This document shows positions 36,691-42,188 of a stretch of 44,039 nucleotides of DNA, in pieces. The notes beneath the pieces were generated by a model. It ran no database searches. It saw only the letters and a list, made by a program, of their open reading frames with translations, and had not been told where the DNA came from. The position numbers and the translations under genes are program-made. How positions within the stretch are numbered: position 1 is the stretch's first letter; each line of letters opens with the position of its first letter. This stretch comes from an uncultured Pelagibacteraceae bacterium. Lineage in GTDB: Bacteria > Pseudomonadota > Alphaproteobacteria > Pelagibacterales > AG-422-B15. Location of the stretch: assembly GCA_902590345.1 (NCBI GenBank), contig CACIWK010000001.1, positions 206,010 through 250,048 on the forward strand, read 5' to 3'.

Positions 36691-37383
36691 TTGACTAAAA
36701 ACCCAATCTACTGTGCTATTGATACAAGTTGTATTGATGATGCAGATAGAATTATTAATGAAATTGCACCTCACATTGGTGGAGTCAAATTAGGCCTCGA
36801 ATTCTTTACCTCTTGTGGCATCAAGGGCATTGAAAAAATTGCAAAATATAAACTTCCTTTATTTATAGATCTAAAGCTGTACGATATTCCAAATACAGTA
36901 AAAAAAACACTTGAAAATATCTTATCTTATAATCCTACATATACAACACTTCACGTTTCAGGGGGTTCTCATATGTTAAAAGAATGTGTAAATTTAAAAA
37001 AAGAATTAAATAGTAATACAAATTTAATAGGTGTCACAATGCTTACAAGCTTTGATAATGAATCAATTAATGAAATTGGTATAAGTGGCACAGTGAATAA
37101 GAACGTAAAAAATTTATCTGCACTTGCATTTGACTGTGGAATGGATGGTATTGTTTGTAGTCCAATGGAAATAAGAAAAGTCAAAGAAACATTTGGATCT
37201 AAATTAAAAATTGTTGTGCCTGGAATAAGAAATCAAACGGACAATGCTGATGATCAAAAAAGAACTCTTTCAGCTAAGAAAGCAATTGAGTTTGGTGCAG
37301 ATATTATTGTAGTGGGAAGACCAATAACTTCTGCCGCTTCACCACGAAATGCAGCTGAGATTTTTCATCAAAGCATAAAGTGA
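36691..37383 (+). CDS. pyrF: orotidine 5'-phosphate decarboxylase
   Basis: The 230-aa TIM barrel produces UMP. The catalytic DLKLYDIPNTV (Lys-x3-Asp charged network) is intact, as are VKLGLEFF near the start and VVGRPITSA for phosphate binding near the end. Start is TTG at 36691. The stop overlaps the GTG start of trpF by 4 nt, beginning a chain of 4-nt overlaps down to accD. Confidence 0.96.
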   Translation: MTKNPIYCAIDTSCIDDADRIINEIAPHIGGVKLGLEFFTSCGIKGIEKIAKYKLPLFIDLKLYDIPNTVKKTLENILSYNPTYTTLHVSGGSHMLKECVNLKKELNSNTNLIGVTMLTSFDNESINEIGISGTVNKNVKNLSALAFDCGMDGIVCSPMEIRKVKETFGSKLKIVVPGIRNQTDNADDQKRTLSAKKAIEFGADIIVVGRPITSAASPRNAAEIFHQSIK

Positions 37384-38021
37384 GTAAGGCGTTCATTAAA
37401 ATTTGTGGAGTAAAAGATATTAAAATTGCTAAACATGCAATCAATTGCGGTGCATCTTTTTTAGGCTTTGTTTTTTTCAAAAATTCAAGCAGAAACATAT
37501 CAATTAGTAAATGCGCAGAAATCTTAGATGAAATAAATGGCAAAGTGAATACTGTCGCAGTAACTGTAAATCCAACTAATAGTGATTTAGAGACTTTCTC
37601 AGAAATGAAGTTTACACATCTTCAGTTACACGGAAATGAAAGTTTAAATGAGGTAAGAAAAATCAATAAGACTTATAATCTAAAAATAATAAAATCATTT
37701 AACATATCTAAAGTATCTGATTTGGATAAAATAAAAGAATATTGTCCTTACATTGACTATATTCTATTGGACTCAGAACAAAAGAAAGATGTGCCTGGAG
37801 GAACTGGCCAGACATTTGATTGGAAAATTATAAGAAATTTTTCCCCAAATAAGTCATTTTTTCTATCAGGAGGCCTCAACATTACAAATATATCAGATGC
37901 ATTAGATTTAAAAAAAACAGAATATTTTGATGTTAGCTCTGGTGTTGAGAATTCAGAGGGTATAAAAGATGAAAAATTAATAACTGAATTCATATCAAAG
38001 GCAAACAAAGCTGTAAAATGA
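37380..38021 (+). CDS. trpF: phosphoribosylanthranilate isomerase
   Basis: The 213-aa TIM barrel performs the Amadori rearrangement of tryptophan synthesis. The acid/base Cys in IKICGV near the N-terminus and Asp in YILLDSE are present, followed by PGGTGQTFDW, LSGGLNITNI and DVSSGVENSEGIKDE, all canonical. Thus trpF looks ordinary, in contrast with trpB and trpA that follow. The GTG start overlaps pyrF and the stop overlaps trpB (ATGA). Confidence 0.95.
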   Translation: MSKAFIKICGVKDIKIAKHAINCGASFLGFVFFKNSSRNISISKCAEILDEINGKVNTVAVTVNPTNSDLETFSEMKFTHLQLHGNESLNEVRKINKTYNLKIIKSFNISKVSDLDKIKEYCPYIDYILLDSEQKKDVPGGTGQTFDWKIIRNFSPNKSFFLSGGLNITNISDALDLKKTEYFDVSSGVENSEGIKDEKLITEFISKANKAVK

Positions 38022-39247
38022 AACTAGAAAAAGGGATTCCTCTAATTGACCAACATGATGAAAATGGATATTGGGGCGGTAAATTTGGTGGAAACCAAAT
38101 AGCTGAAAGTCTGAATTATCCAATTGAAGAATTAACTCGTGAATTTGAAAAATTAAGAAATGATGAGACATTTATTGCTGAGAGAGATTATTATTTTAAA
38201 AATTTTGTTGGAGCGCCGACTCCATTTATAAAATTAGAGAATCTTACAAAACATCTTGGTGGGGCTCAAATTTATTGCAAACTGGTTTCTAAAGCAACAG
38301 GCGGTGCACACAAAGCTTATAATGCAGTTGTTCACAGCTTAATATGTAAGCGATTAGGCAAAACTTATATAGGTGGTGACACTGGTGCCGGATATGCGGG
38401 AAAGATGCTTAGTATGGCAGCCGCAAAATTTAATTTAAAATGTAAAATATTCATGGGCGTAAAGGATGTAGAAAGGCAATCAATTAATGTTTTTTCCATG
38501 AGAAGTTATGGCGCAGAAGTCGTACCTGTTAGCTCTGGCTCGCAAACTTTAGTGGATGCAGTGTCAGAATGTATGAGATGGTGGACAAGTGAGAATGAAG
38601 AAGCACATATGTGTGTTGGAAGCACTGTTGGCCCTACTATTTTTGTCAAAATATGCGCTTGGTCTACTGCTCAAATATCCAGAGAAATGAAAAAACAAGT
38701 AATAGATGAATTTGGTGATGTTCCAAAAGATATGAAATTAATTAATTGCGTTGGTGGAGGATCGTCGGCTGCAGGTTTTTGGAATGAATGGATTGATTAT
38801 GATCATGTTGAACTCATAGGAGTAGAAGCTGGGGGACCAGAAGGGTCTTCAAAACATGCTGCACCCTTGACAAATGACTCGCCTATCGGGGTTCTCCATG
38901 GAGCAACTCAATATGTTATTCAAGACGACCAGGGGGAAATTGAGGAAACAGAGTCAATAAGTGCTGGACTTGATTATCCAGGTGTAAGTCCACTTCATTG
39001 TTATCTAAAAGAAACTGGAAGAGCAAGGTACACTTCTGCTAGTGACGAGGAAGCCATAGAAGCTTTTCAATTAGTAAGTAAAAATGAAGGTTTTGTAAGC
39101 CCATCACTTGAACCTTCACACGCATTCGCAGAAGCAATTAAAATTGCACCTAAATTAAGTAAAGATACAATTATTGTTGTTGATTCTTGCGGTGACTCTG
39201 CAAAAGACTCAAAAATTATTGCTGAAAGGCTTGGTTACAAAATATGA
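38018..39247 (+). CDS. trpB: tryptophan synthase beta chain, divergent active site
   Basis: The 409-aa PLP enzyme of the TrpB fold aligns along its length with normal TrpB (DVERQSINVFSMR, SISAGLDYPGV, EAIEAFQLVSK). The PLP lysine is Lys99 in GGAHK and the phosphate loop is GGGSSA (normally GGGSNA). Conserved positions have changed: Glu109 of Salmonella is Asp121 (DTGAGYAG for ETGAGQHG), Ser377 is Cys391 (SCGDSAKD for LSGRGDKD), and GPHPYP is GPTIFV. It may still make tryptophan with altered kinetics, or may act on another substrate. It is coupled by 4-nt overlaps to trpF and trpA. It is not the long TrpB2 type. Confidence 0.85.
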   Translation: MKLEKGIPLIDQHDENGYWGGKFGGNQIAESLNYPIEELTREFEKLRNDETFIAERDYYFKNFVGAPTPFIKLENLTKHLGGAQIYCKLVSKATGGAHKAYNAVVHSLICKRLGKTYIGGDTGAGYAGKMLSMAAAKFNLKCKIFMGVKDVERQSINVFSMRSYGAEVVPVSSGSQTLVDAVSECMRWWTSENEEAHMCVGSTVGPTIFVKICAWSTAQISREMKKQVIDEFGDVPKDMKLINCVGGGSSAAGFWNEWIDYDHVELIGVEAGGPEGSSKHAAPLTNDSPIGVLHGATQYVIQDDQGEIEETESISAGLDYPGVSPLHCYLKETGRARYTSASDEEAIEAFQLVSKNEGFVSPSLEPSHAFAEAIKIAPKLSKDTIIVVDSCGDSAKDSKIIAERLGYKI

Positions 39248-40050
39248 CTTCGTCATCTTTAATTAAATCTTTTGAACGAGCAAAAGAAGATGATAGAGCT
39301 GCGCTATTAACTTATACAGTTGGAGGAGACCCAGATAAAAAAACTTCACTGAATATATTTAAATCAATTGCAGATTCAGGCGTTGATATTATTGAATGTG
39401 GACTTGGACATGGAGCAAACATTGGTGATGGCGGTGCAATTCAAGACAGTACTTACAGAGCACTATCTAATGGGATTAAAACAAATGACATTTTTGAAAT
39501 TATTGAAGAGTTCAAAAAAGATTATGAGACAGATGTAATCATTATGACATACCAGAACAAAATTATGGCTTACGGGGAAGATGATTTCCTTAAGAGATGC
39601 ATTAGTAGTAAAGTTTCAGGTATAATTTGTGTTGATTGGCCATGGCCACTTAATCTTAATTTTGCAAAAAAATGTAAAGAAAATAGTATTGTATTCATAC
39701 AATTGCTTTGCCCTACTACAAATGAAGACCGACTAAAAAGTATTTTAAGCGATGCTCATGAGGTTGTTTACTATATTTCAATGCTTTCAACTACAGGTCA
39801 AAAACTAAAAGTGAGTTCAGACGAAATTAAGAAAAGATTTAATTTAATTAAAAAGATATCTCCTGATAAAAAATGTATAATTGGTTTTGGAATTACAGCT
39901 GATACAATAAATGATTTTAAGGATACTGATGCATGCGTTGTAGGATCGGCTTTATGCAGAGAAATAACAAGGTCAATTGATGAAGAACTTAATCCTGCCA
40001 AAAATGTAGGAAATATGGTAAGTGATTTAAAACAAAAACTAAGCTCATGA
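39244..40050 (+). CDS. trpA: tryptophan synthase alpha chain, divergent
   Basis: The 268-aa TIM barrel aligns with TrpA. Catalytic Glu51 and Asp62 (Glu49 and Asp60 in Salmonella) are kept, as are Tyr177 (Tyr175), phosphate loops GFGI (214-217) and GSAL (235-238), and LLCPTTNEDRL. But loop 2, normally PFSDPxADGP, reads GHGANIGDGG, so Asp56 and the prolines that contact the beta chain are gone. The loop 6 GVTG is STTG, and VDLPPEE is VDWPWPL. The changes parallel those in TrpB and suggest co-evolution. The stop overlaps accD. Confidence 0.82.
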   Translation: MTSSSLIKSFERAKEDDRAALLTYTVGGDPDKKTSLNIFKSIADSGVDIIECGLGHGANIGDGGAIQDSTYRALSNGIKTNDIFEIIEEFKKDYETDVIIMTYQNKIMAYGEDDFLKRCISSKVSGIICVDWPWPLNLNFAKKCKENSIVFIQLLCPTTNEDRLKSILSDAHEVVYYISMLSTTGQKLKVSSDEIKKRFNLIKKISPDKKCIIGFGITADTINDFKDTDACVVGSALCREITRSIDEELNPAKNVGNMVSDLKQKLSS

Positions 40051-40901
40051 ATTGGTTAACAAGAACTATTTCAAAAGTATTTCCTATAAAGAAAAAAAGT
40101 TTAGATATCGCAGAAAATGCTTGGATTAAATGCTCTCAATGCCAAACAATGCTCTACTCGAGTGATCTAGAAAAAACTCTTTTTGTATGCCCTAATTGTG
40201 ATGAACACTTACAAATTCATCCTCGTATTAGATTTAAAAATCTATTTGATGGTGGTGTATTTGAAGAAATAAAATACCCCTCTGAGTTCACTGATCCACT
40301 TAATTTTAAAGCTTTAAAAACTTACAAAGAGCGATTTAATGATGCTCGTCAAAAAACAGACATGGATGACTGCTTTCTTATTGGTTACGGGCAAATTAAT
40401 AATATCAATGTAACTGTTGCTGCTCAAAATTTTCATTTCATGGGTGGTTCTGTGGGAGCTTCAGCTGCAGAAGCAATGATTAAAGCGGCAGAACACTCGG
40501 TCACTAACCATACTCCATTAATTGTATTTACTTGTTCCGGAGGAGCAAGAATGGATGAAAATCAACATTCTCTTCAATCACTTCCAAAAACAACAATAGC
40601 TTGTCAAATGGTTAAAGATGCTAAGTTGCCTTATATAGTTGTTAATACAAATCCAACAAGTGGAGGTGTGTCTGCGTCTTTTGGATCATTGGGATCAATT
40701 ACATTAGCTGAACCAAATGCATTAATTTGTTTTGCAGGTCCTAGGGTAATTTCAAATACTGTAGGTGAGACTCTGCCTGATGGGTTCCAAAGATCAGAAT
40801 ATCTATTAGAACATGGGTTTATAGATCAAGTGGTTCATAGAAAAGAACTTAAAGATAAATTATTTCAAATAATTTCGTTATTACTTAAAAGAGTAGCCTA
40901 A
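40047..40901 (+). CDS. accD: acetyl-CoA carboxylase carboxyltransferase beta subunit
   Basis: The 284-aa subunit of bacterial acetyl-CoA carboxylase commits carbon to fatty acids. The N-terminal zinc ribbon CSQCQTML and CPNCDEHL is complete. The carboxyltransferase part has FMGGSVGASAAEAM, FTCSGGARMDE, NPTSGGVSASFGSLG and FAGPRVISNTVGE. Length is standard. It follows trpA by a 4-nt overlap and is directly followed, without a gap, by folC, as is usual in alphaproteobacteria. Confidence 0.97.
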   Translation: MNWLTRTISKVFPIKKKSLDIAENAWIKCSQCQTMLYSSDLEKTLFVCPNCDEHLQIHPRIRFKNLFDGGVFEEIKYPSEFTDPLNFKALKTYKERFNDARQKTDMDDCFLIGYGQINNINVTVAAQNFHFMGGSVGASAAEAMIKAAEHSVTNHTPLIVFTCSGGARMDENQHSLQSLPKTTIACQMVKDAKLPYIVVNTNPTSGGVSASFGSLGSITLAEPNALICFAGPRVISNTVGETLPDGFQRSEYLLEHGFIDQVVHRKELKDKLFQIISLLLKRVA

Positions 40902-42188
40902 TTGAAAAAATCAAATGAACAAATTGATAAGCTTTTAAACGAGCTTCTTGAACTTCATCCAAAAAGAATAGATTTATCACTTGATAGAGTTTGTAACCTA
41001 TTAGAAAAATTAGATAACCCTCAAAATAAAATAAATAATATTGTTCATATTGCTGGAACTAATGGAAAATTTTCTACACTGAAATTTATTCAGGACATAT
41101 TAAAAAGTAATAGTAAATCAACGAATGCTTATATCTCGCCTCACCTAATTAGATTTAATGAGAGGTTTCAGCTGATGGATAAAGAAATATCAAATGAGGA
41201 GCTGTATTCCGTTTTAAATAAAGTCAAAGATTTTAATCATAGCGATCCGATTACTTTCTTTGAAATAACTAGTTCCGCTTTTTTTGAAGCAGCCTCAAAT
41301 TGCCCGGCTGATTATACGCTTCTTGAGGTAGGTTTAGGTGGAAGACTGGATAGCAGCAATGTAATAACTCCTACAATCTCTGTTATTACCTCAATTTCTA
41401 GGGATCATCAGGATTTTTTAGGAGATAGCATTGAGATGATAGCATTTGAAAAATCTGGAATAATTAAAAGTGATATCCCAGCTATTATTGGTTATCAGCC
41501 TTACCCAGAAGCTAGAGAAATGCTTATGGATCAGGCGGAATATAAAAAAGCTCCGATATTTGCCCATGGAATTCACTGGAACTTAACGGAACATAATGAC
41601 AAATTAATATATGAAGATAACCAAAATAAAATTGAATTTGATAACCTATATACACATAATGTATTTCAAAAAAAGAACCTTGGACTTGCGTTGGCTGCAG
41701 CTTCAAAACTACCCAATATTGATATCAAGTCTTTTGTATCTAAAAATCTTCACAATAAAACTTACTTTCCAGGAAGAATGGAAAAAATATCAGATGGCAA
41801 ATTAGGATCTACTATAGCTTCAACAAATGAATTGTATTTAGATGGTTCTCATAATGAGGATGCCGCAAGCAATCTAAATGAAACAATTAATCAGCTTACA
41901 AATAAAAAGTTGTGTATAATTTTAGGAATGATCAATACAAAAGATCCAATTAGTTATTTAAGCAAGTTTGATAAAATTGATGCTCTAACTGTTATTACAA
42001 TACCAAATGAAGAGAGTGCAATTGATTCAAACGAATTATATAACAAGCTTAAAATGTTTTATGAAAATGTAAATAGAGCCGACTCAATTCAGGAAGCATT
42101 AGCTAATTTAAATAATAATCACCAAGATGCACGTATCCTAATATGTGGATCATTATATTTAGCCGGAAAAGTTTTAGAAATGAATTAA
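40902..42188 (+). CDS. folC: dihydrofolate synthase / folylpolyglutamate synthase
   Basis: The 428-aa Mur-ligase-family enzyme has the P-loop AGTNGKFS (51-58), SPHLIRFNERF, LEVGLGGRLDSSNVI, and SRDHQDFLGDSIEMIAFEKSGII, then FPGRME and YLDGSHNEDAA. The start is TTG directly after the accD stop (TAATTG). The end overlaps the convergent trxA stop by 4 nt. Confidence 0.95.
   Translation: MKKSNEQIDKLLNELLELHPKRIDLSLDRVCNLLEKLDNPQNKINNIVHIAGTNGKFSTLKFIQDILKSNSKSTNAYISPHLIRFNERFQLMDKEISNEELYSVLNKVKDFNHSDPITFFEITSSAFFEAASNCPADYTLLEVGLGGRLDSSNVITPTISVITSISRDHQDFLGDSIEMIAFEKSGIIKSDIPAIIGYQPYPEAREMLMDQAEYKKAPIFAHGIHWNLTEHNDKLIYEDNQNKIEFDNLYTHNVFQKKNLGLALAAASKLPNIDIKSFVSKNLHNKTYFPGRMEKISDGKLGSTIASTNELYLDGSHNEDAASNLNETINQLTNKKLCIILGMINTKDPISYLSKFDKIDALTVITIPNEESAIDSNELYNKLKMFYENVNRADSIQEALANLNNNHQDARILICGSLYLAGKVLEMN

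Follow-up and report, generated by a model that had tools for sequence, protein, structure and literature searches.

Introduction

Tryptophan synthase, a standard model of substrate channelling and of allostery between subunits, is considered here in the form carried by SAR11 bacteria, as represented by trpB (38018..39247) and trpA (39244..40050) of an uncultured Pelagibacteraceae bacterium. The window, meaning the whole stretch analysed, comprises 44,039 nucleotides of contig CACIWK010000001.1 (GenBank assembly GCA_902590345.1, positions 206,010 to 250,048 of the forward strand); the source genome is represented by 28 contigs (1.01 Mb) and is 76% complete. Coordinates are window positions, all features cited lie on the + strand, and residue numbers follow the frame of E. 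coli TrpA (alpha) and TrpB (beta) taken from NC_000913, unless given as residues of the window proteins.

In the described enzymes, alpha Asp56 presumably pairs with beta Lys167 at the subunit interface, and the salt bridges of tryptophan synthase were reportedly the subject of a study in 2001. The asparagine of the residue trio at the phosphate of pyridoxal phosphate (PLP) is, by our own mapping, presumably position 236 of beta. The sections of one paper drawn on here report that a conserved histidine, serine and asparagine help to hold this phosphate, that loop 6 of alpha has a conserved GVTG motif which includes Gly181, and that alpha activity falls when Asp56 or Pro57 of alpha is changed, the effect being significant only within the complex (PMC6608616); those of another describe Arg141-Asp305 of beta as a salt bridge of the closed state in Salmonella (PMC9512447).

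The SAR11 pair shares with the Salmonella and E. coli enzymes the PLP lysine (Lys87), alpha Glu49 and Asp60, the Arg141-Asp305 pair, the phosphate-site glycines, and the pairing of the two genes; it differs in having Asp for Glu109, Ala for His115, Val for Lys167, Ser for Asn236, and Asp for Arg379 in beta, and Ala for Asp56 and Ser for Gly181 in alpha. The trpB gene of SAR11 bacteria has been treated before, in a study whose first author we take to be Kagan. In the sections drawn on here, that study presents SAR11 trpB as a distinct, early-split, single-copy trpB_1 cluster judged functional, gives a SAR11 gene order around trpB like that found here, and reports trpE-G-D-C of P. ubique; the words "residue" and "glutamate" are absent from its main text, which thus holds no residue analysis, and other SAR11 TrpBA types are not mentioned there (Genome Biology, 2008; PMC2395257). 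In the open-access literature searched, no account appeared of the altered SAR11 residues, of the paired loss at the interface, or of TrpBA types being exchanged; the distinct SAR11 cluster was already known.

The evidence set out below indicates, with a probability of roughly 85%, that the two genes encode the tryptophan synthase of this organism, and that it belongs to a SAR11-wide type in which the beta active site and the subunit interface have been remade; it is probably not an enzyme for another substrate.

Residues of the two subunits

TrpB (409 residues) passes the cut-off of the TrpB1 model TIGR00263 (400.7 bits against 392.45) and TrpA (268 residues) that of TIGR00262 (170.2 bits against 102.35), whereas TrpB fails the TrpB2 model TIGR01415 (106.8 bits against 518.85). 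TrpB2 has the PLP beta-replacement fold in common with SAR11 TrpB but has Glu109 and is encoded by a separate gene in some SAR11 genomes; such an extra TrpB2-like gene is seen in six of them (L235-L240, in G565, G602, G662, G534, G607, and G584), and the one protein checked scores 624.6 bits against the TIGR01415 cut-off. The window TrpB is 42% identical to that of E. coli. Its predicted structure has a mean predicted local distance difference test score of 77.9, with values under 50 in stretches around residues 280-298 and 316-323, and the closest solved fold is TrpB of P. furiosus (5t6m chain C; template modelling score 0.86).

Beta residues were compared between 95 distinct SAR11-type and 68 ordinary TrpBs, the latter comprising 58 from Pseudomonadota (including E. 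coli) and 10 from plasmid records (Bacillota, Fusobacteriota, Actinomycetota, Deinococcota, Haloferax, Martelella, and an uncultured bacterium). Because the SAR11-type sequences were chosen for their resemblance to the window or their kinship with it, and not as a random sample of TrpBs, the counts describe the SAR11 type and not TrpBs at large. Dropped before counting were three duplicates (L001, L002, L145), rows with fewer than 200 aligned residues, and L182, a second TrpB-like gene of one genome (G152; 244.7 bits) with a 414-residue frame lacking the PLP lysine; locus L186, of only 100 bases, did not enter the analysis.

The PLP-binding lysine is kept in the window TrpB (Lys99, equivalent to Lys87; 38312..38314) and follows His86 as in TrpB1. 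Position 109 (Asp121; 38378..38380) is Asp in all 95 SAR11-type proteins; all 68 ordinary TrpBs have Glu there, so the window protein is counted a variant, its side chain still being a carboxylate. Sequencing error was rejected as the cause, 95 distinct sequences carrying Asp109. The PLP-phosphate residue at 236 (Ser250; 38765..38767) is Ser in 95 of 95, and position 167 at the subunit interface (Val179; 38552..38554), the presumed partner of alpha 56, is Val or Ile in 95 of 95. Gln114-His115 of the substrate-carboxylate loop reads Tyr126-Ala127 (38393..38398), with Ala at 115 in 91 of 95, and Ser377-Gly378-Arg379 reads Cys391-Gly392-Asp393 (39188..39196), with Asp at 379 in 90 of 95. The GPHPYP segment has become GPTIFV (residues 205-210 of the window TrpB), and the closing pair Arg141-Asp305 is retained as Arg153 and Asp319. 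Altogether, the ordinary TrpBs have 119 columns with an invariance of 97% or more, and 34 of these are altered in at least 90% of the SAR11-type proteins.

Asp121, Cys391, and the rewritten GPHPYP segment had been noticed within 38018-40050 by an earlier examination of the window (the sequence-only reading), and alignment bears out all three, to which K167V, H115A, Q114Y, N236S, and R379D are now added. Of the two active-site substitutions put forward there, Asp109 marks the SAR11 type (95/95 against 0/68), and Cys391 was rejected as a novelty: Cys at 377 is ordinary, occurring in 33 of the 58 Pseudomonadota TrpBs, with Ser in all 10 plasmid-borne ones; Asp393 is not ordinary. The pair had been called divergent; its residue changes are real, but they are not peculiar to this genome, as Asp109 runs through the whole SAR11 type.

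In TrpA, loop 2 (residues 55-64; 39406..39435) reads GHGANIGDGG in place of PFSDPLADGP, with Ala58 for Asp56 and Asp62 in the place of Asp60, which is thereby kept; loop 6 reads Ser182-Thr-Thr-Gly185 and lacks GVTG, Ser182 (39787..39789) standing for Gly181. The window protein also keeps Glu49 (Glu51), Thr183 (Thr184), and the phosphate-site glycines, in agreement with the earlier observation that the catalytic acids and phosphate sites survive while loop 2 is lost and loop 6 altered; D56A and G181S are further changes. Asp56 is present in 57 of 57 ordinary TrpAs and in none of 91 SAR11-type ones, which have Thr, Ala, or Cys, and position 181 is Gly in 56 of 57 ordinary and Ser in 89 of 91 SAR11-type TrpAs; 4 of 27 near-invariant columns are altered across the type. 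SAR11-type TrpAs retain Glu49, Tyr175, Thr183, and the phosphate-site glycines, and also Asp60, save for a Glu in one genome (G015, locus L175) that recurs in 4 of 50 ordinary TrpAs. The TrpAB of Chlamydia trachomatis (6v82, among the structures listed for the predicted TrpB fold) is, we take it, a natural variant with altered alpha loops and a catalytically impaired TrpA; unlike it, SAR11 TrpA retains Glu49, Asp60, and Thr183.

The contact between alpha 56 and beta 167

The window pair lacks the Asp56-Lys167 contact, having Ala58 and Val179 in its place, a matched change stronger than those that the sequence-only reading had pointed out. Among 194 rows with both genes (near-identical repeats and repeats of some genomes left uncollapsed), 59 have Asp-Lys at positions 56 and 167, 11 have Glu-Lys, 121 have Thr, Ala, or Cys with Val or Ile, and 3 have Thr-Leu; the 121 rows are the SAR11 type and the 3 another type, and charge on one side only occurs in 0 of 194. 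The only ordinary TrpB to have lost Lys167 is that of a Haloferax plasmid (Ala), with no trpA annotated alongside, and six TrpB2 proteins have Gly at 167 and no adjoining TrpA.

On the best tree the loss takes two changes. A single clade is nonetheless compatible with the approximately unbiased (AU) test (p 0.352), so one loss may suffice; independent losses in the SAR11 type and the G456 type (described below) had been expected, and the test weakens that expectation. The pairing pattern rests on few evolutionary events.

Phylogeny and distribution of the SAR11 type

Trees were built from 61 TrpBs and from 51 joined TrpB and TrpA sequences (L050, with no usable TrpA, being left out of the second). 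Both place all Asp109 proteins in one clade with support of 100/100, on a stem of 1.34 changes per column in the TrpB tree and 1.78 in the joined tree, and one change suffices to explain Asp109; owing to long branches the attachment point of the clade is unsure, and the bootstrap of the TrpB tree is unsettled. Of the two findings that together would have refuted the sequence-only reading, one is borne out, the residues being common in their clade, but the other is not: in the trees a long branch sets the clade apart from the ordinary TrpBs.

Among the best 80 of 564 relatives of the window TrpB, 78 loci are titled Pelagibacteraceae, Pelagibacterales, or Pelagibacter, and two titled alpha proteobacterium (L063, L064) fall within the SAR11 clade in the TrpB tree. 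No close relative was found outside Pelagibacterales in the class and phylum samples, plasmids, phages, or viral contigs searched. In the class sample 106 of 143 genomes gave a match, of which two are Pelagibacterales (400.5 and 393.4 bits), the best match in each of the other 104 scoring 466-658 bits; in the phylum sample 241 of 249 genomes matched, with a best foreign score to the SAR11-type profile of 409 bits against 799 for the window. All 59 foreign loci read from the two samples carry Glu109. Carriage by plasmids or phages was rejected, the best-ranked of 119 plasmid and 20 phage matches (60 and 10 of them listed) being only 45.5% and 42.6% identical, respectively; the viral contigs held no relative.

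Other TrpBA types in the same slot

A TrpB match is present in 278 of the 298 genomes of Pelagibacterales that are 80% complete or better. Re-reading of the 24 with the weakest expectation values gave 11 of the SAR11 type, with Asp109 visible in 8 and the fragments of 3 lacking that stretch, and 13 of other types: eight of the G048 type (Glu109); its sister G437 (Glu109); G434, a genome of the window's own family whose TrpB is of the ordinary alphaproteobacterial kind (633 bits); and three of the G456 type (Glu109, Leu167). For the remaining 254 genomes the type was judged from similarity, with residues read in some of them.

Gene order is alike in the fetched flanks of the different types, trpF or cmk going undetected by the queries in some. 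G434 and G437, coded as one genus, are 84% identical in rpsA, 67% in pyrF, 66% in trpF, 79% in accD, and 96% in trxA, against 50% in trpB and 45% in trpA; G456 and G048 are 82% identical in rpsA, 66% in pyrF, 61% in trpF, and 76% in trxA, against 30% in trpB and trpA, 47% in accD, and 30% in folC. Among 165 distinct pairs, the nearest TrpB and the nearest TrpA are of the same type in every case save the single G437 pair. Because accD, folC, and trxA likewise switch between divergent forms, making the locus a mosaic, and SAR11 recombination is reported as promiscuous in the sections of the source drawn on here (PMC12374537), such exchange is not peculiar to trpBA.

Several loci are of interest in their own right. 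In L175 (G015:C1, of the window's genus) trpF, trpB, trpA, accD, folC, and trxA are 41-53% identical to the window, and rpsA, ihfB, and pyrF 82-99%. L176, L183, and their relatives (G048 type) keep Glu109, and their position 305 is Gln or Thr; what this type has lost is instead the Arg141-Asp305 closing pair of ordinary TrpB. L243, L245, and L248 (G456, G565, G654) hold a very divergent TrpBA in the trp slot, TrpB being 28-29% identical to that of the window; one TrpB of this group that was checked scores 322 bits, under the trpB cut-off. In L231 (G609:C9) and L229 (G683:C7) the SAR11-type TrpB is split into two overlapping or adjoining frames by a frameshift, either genuine or introduced during assembly.

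Function and alternative explanations

The sequence-only reading had proposed looking for a second canonical trpA or trpB and for trpC. A profile search of the contigs (76% complete) found no second trpA or TrpB1 in the source genome, the other TIGR00263 matches scoring only 36.5 and 18.6 bits; single-contig relatives likewise have one strong TrpB match each, two further relative genomes show weak unrelated matches only, and a second canonical trpA or trpB was rejected. In relatives trpC is present in 44 of 59, and in 30 of the 31 near-complete ones. The ratio of non-synonymous to synonymous substitution rates (dN/dS) of trpB is 0.019-0.029 in three of eight comparisons within the window's genus, the lowest of six genes there, and decay or a pseudogene was rejected on this ground; in the other five comparisons the synonymous distance (dS) of trpB is saturated, and accD is equally constrained as judged by dN. 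The single-contig genome G041 (1,308,759 bases), which we take to be HTCC1062, has a SAR11-type TrpB and only one other match to the TrpB model, of 36 bits. The accounts of HTCC1062 cultivation drawn on here describe a defined medium, artificial seawater to which pyruvate, glycine, vitamins, and an organic source of sulphur are added, and tryptophan is unnamed in them (PMC5069961, PMC8437039).

As a tryptophan synthase, the pair would work as follows. TrpA would cleave indole-glycerol phosphate by means of Glu51 and Asp62, in the roles of Glu49 and Asp60, and the indole would move to TrpB, there to be joined to what is presumed to be serine on PLP-Lys99. Asp121 may stand in for Glu109, the pocket around it having been repacked (Gly120, Tyr126, Ala127, Ser250, and Asp393); the closing pair is kept (Arg153, Asp319). 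Since Ala58/Val179 makes the 56/167 contact a neutral one and Ser replaces Gly181 in loop 6, the signal between the alpha and beta sites is probably weaker or differently wired. The sequence-only reading had offered a tryptophan synthase with changed coupling as one of two possibilities, and this appears the likelier, interface and loop signal residues being altered on both sides.

Several points weigh against the pair being a working tryptophan synthase of this kind. In the Salmonella enzyme, Asp at 109 reportedly lowers and alters beta activity. The identity of G041 with HTCC1062, through which the growth records bear on the SAR11 type, is tentative. In the source genome's own assembly (76% complete) trpC was not found; the 34 altered near-invariant columns would also fit a changed donor; and Glu109, which stabilises charge on indole N1 in C-C bond formation, is called essential in Salmonella in the sections drawn on here (PMC9512447).

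A broader proposal is put forward tentatively, its chances falling just short of even: that the SAR11 enzyme replaced the textbook geometry of the beta acid/base and dropped the alpha 56-beta 167 arm, leaving its two sites weakly or differently coupled, and that trpBA behaves as an exchangeable cassette of at least four matched types in one fixed slot.

As to origin, the SAR11 type may have been acquired from an unsampled lineage in which it had evolved earlier and then have spread within SAR11 by in-place replacement, a possibility towards which the odds lean somewhat unfavourably. It would account for the single clade on a stem of 1.78 changes per column, for divergent members in G015, G668, and G522, and for the comparison of the window with the G041 locus, in which trpB is 70% identical against 34-43% for rpsA, pyrF, and accD; TrpB is generally well conserved, however, so this contrast alone is weak, and no donor outside Pelagibacterales appeared in the samples searched, which included the best 80 of 564 relatives.

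It is unlikely that the mechanism is unchanged and that the substitutions are locally compensated drift in a fast, AT-rich lineage, with normal coupling and kinetics. The long stem branch is what such drift would leave, and the catalytic lysine, the alpha acids, Arg141-Asp305, and the phosphate-site glycines are all retained; yet the altered positions are fixed and not drifting (Asp109 and Ser236 each in 95/95), where its dS is measurable, in three comparisons, trpB ranks lowest in dN/dS among six genes, and both sides of the 56/167 contact are altered together.

The other possibility offered earlier, a lyase or beta-replacement enzyme acting on another phosphorylated substrate or donor and not in tryptophan synthesis, would suit the alteration of 34 of 119 near-invariant TrpB columns but is highly improbable, given that the pair is the only copy found in the genome, its operon context, trpC in 30 of 31 near-complete relatives, the kept alpha catalytic residues, an ordinary TrpBA in the same slot of a same-family genome, and HTCC1062 growth as described above, with tryptophan unnamed in the medium. 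The pair is thus best regarded as a probable tryptophan synthase of a remade, SAR11-wide type.

The locus

Within 36691-40901, 4-base overlaps link pyrF (36691..37383), trpF (37380..38021), trpB, trpA, and accD (40047..40901), each to the next, which suggests translational coupling and a single transcript. Family models were applied only to these five genes; folC (40902..42188) takes its name from synteny and from the gene order published for SAR11, and pyrF, accD, and folC are conserved neighbours. The trpF gene had been described as ordinary, and it is: Pfam PRAI gives 136.6 bits against a cut-off of 22.7, the best NCBIfam model 215.4 bits, slightly short of 216.

Implications

Among 55 relatives whose TrpB is complete or nearly so, 15 score under the curated trpB cut-off; automatic annotation can therefore miss tryptophan synthesis in SAR11. 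The classic mechanism of the enzyme owes much to mutants of enterobacteria, and these, in the sections of the literature drawn on here, make Glu109 and the contacts of alpha loop 2 look important. SAR11 bacteria, among the most abundant in the sea, appear to run the reaction with Asp109 and without the 56/167 contact, as do most of their sampled genomes; with an altered catalytic acid and a lost contact, they therefore offer a natural test of which parts of the mechanism are needed, and the natural enzyme pairs drawn from one slot could, if this is true, show which parts of the coupling are needed.

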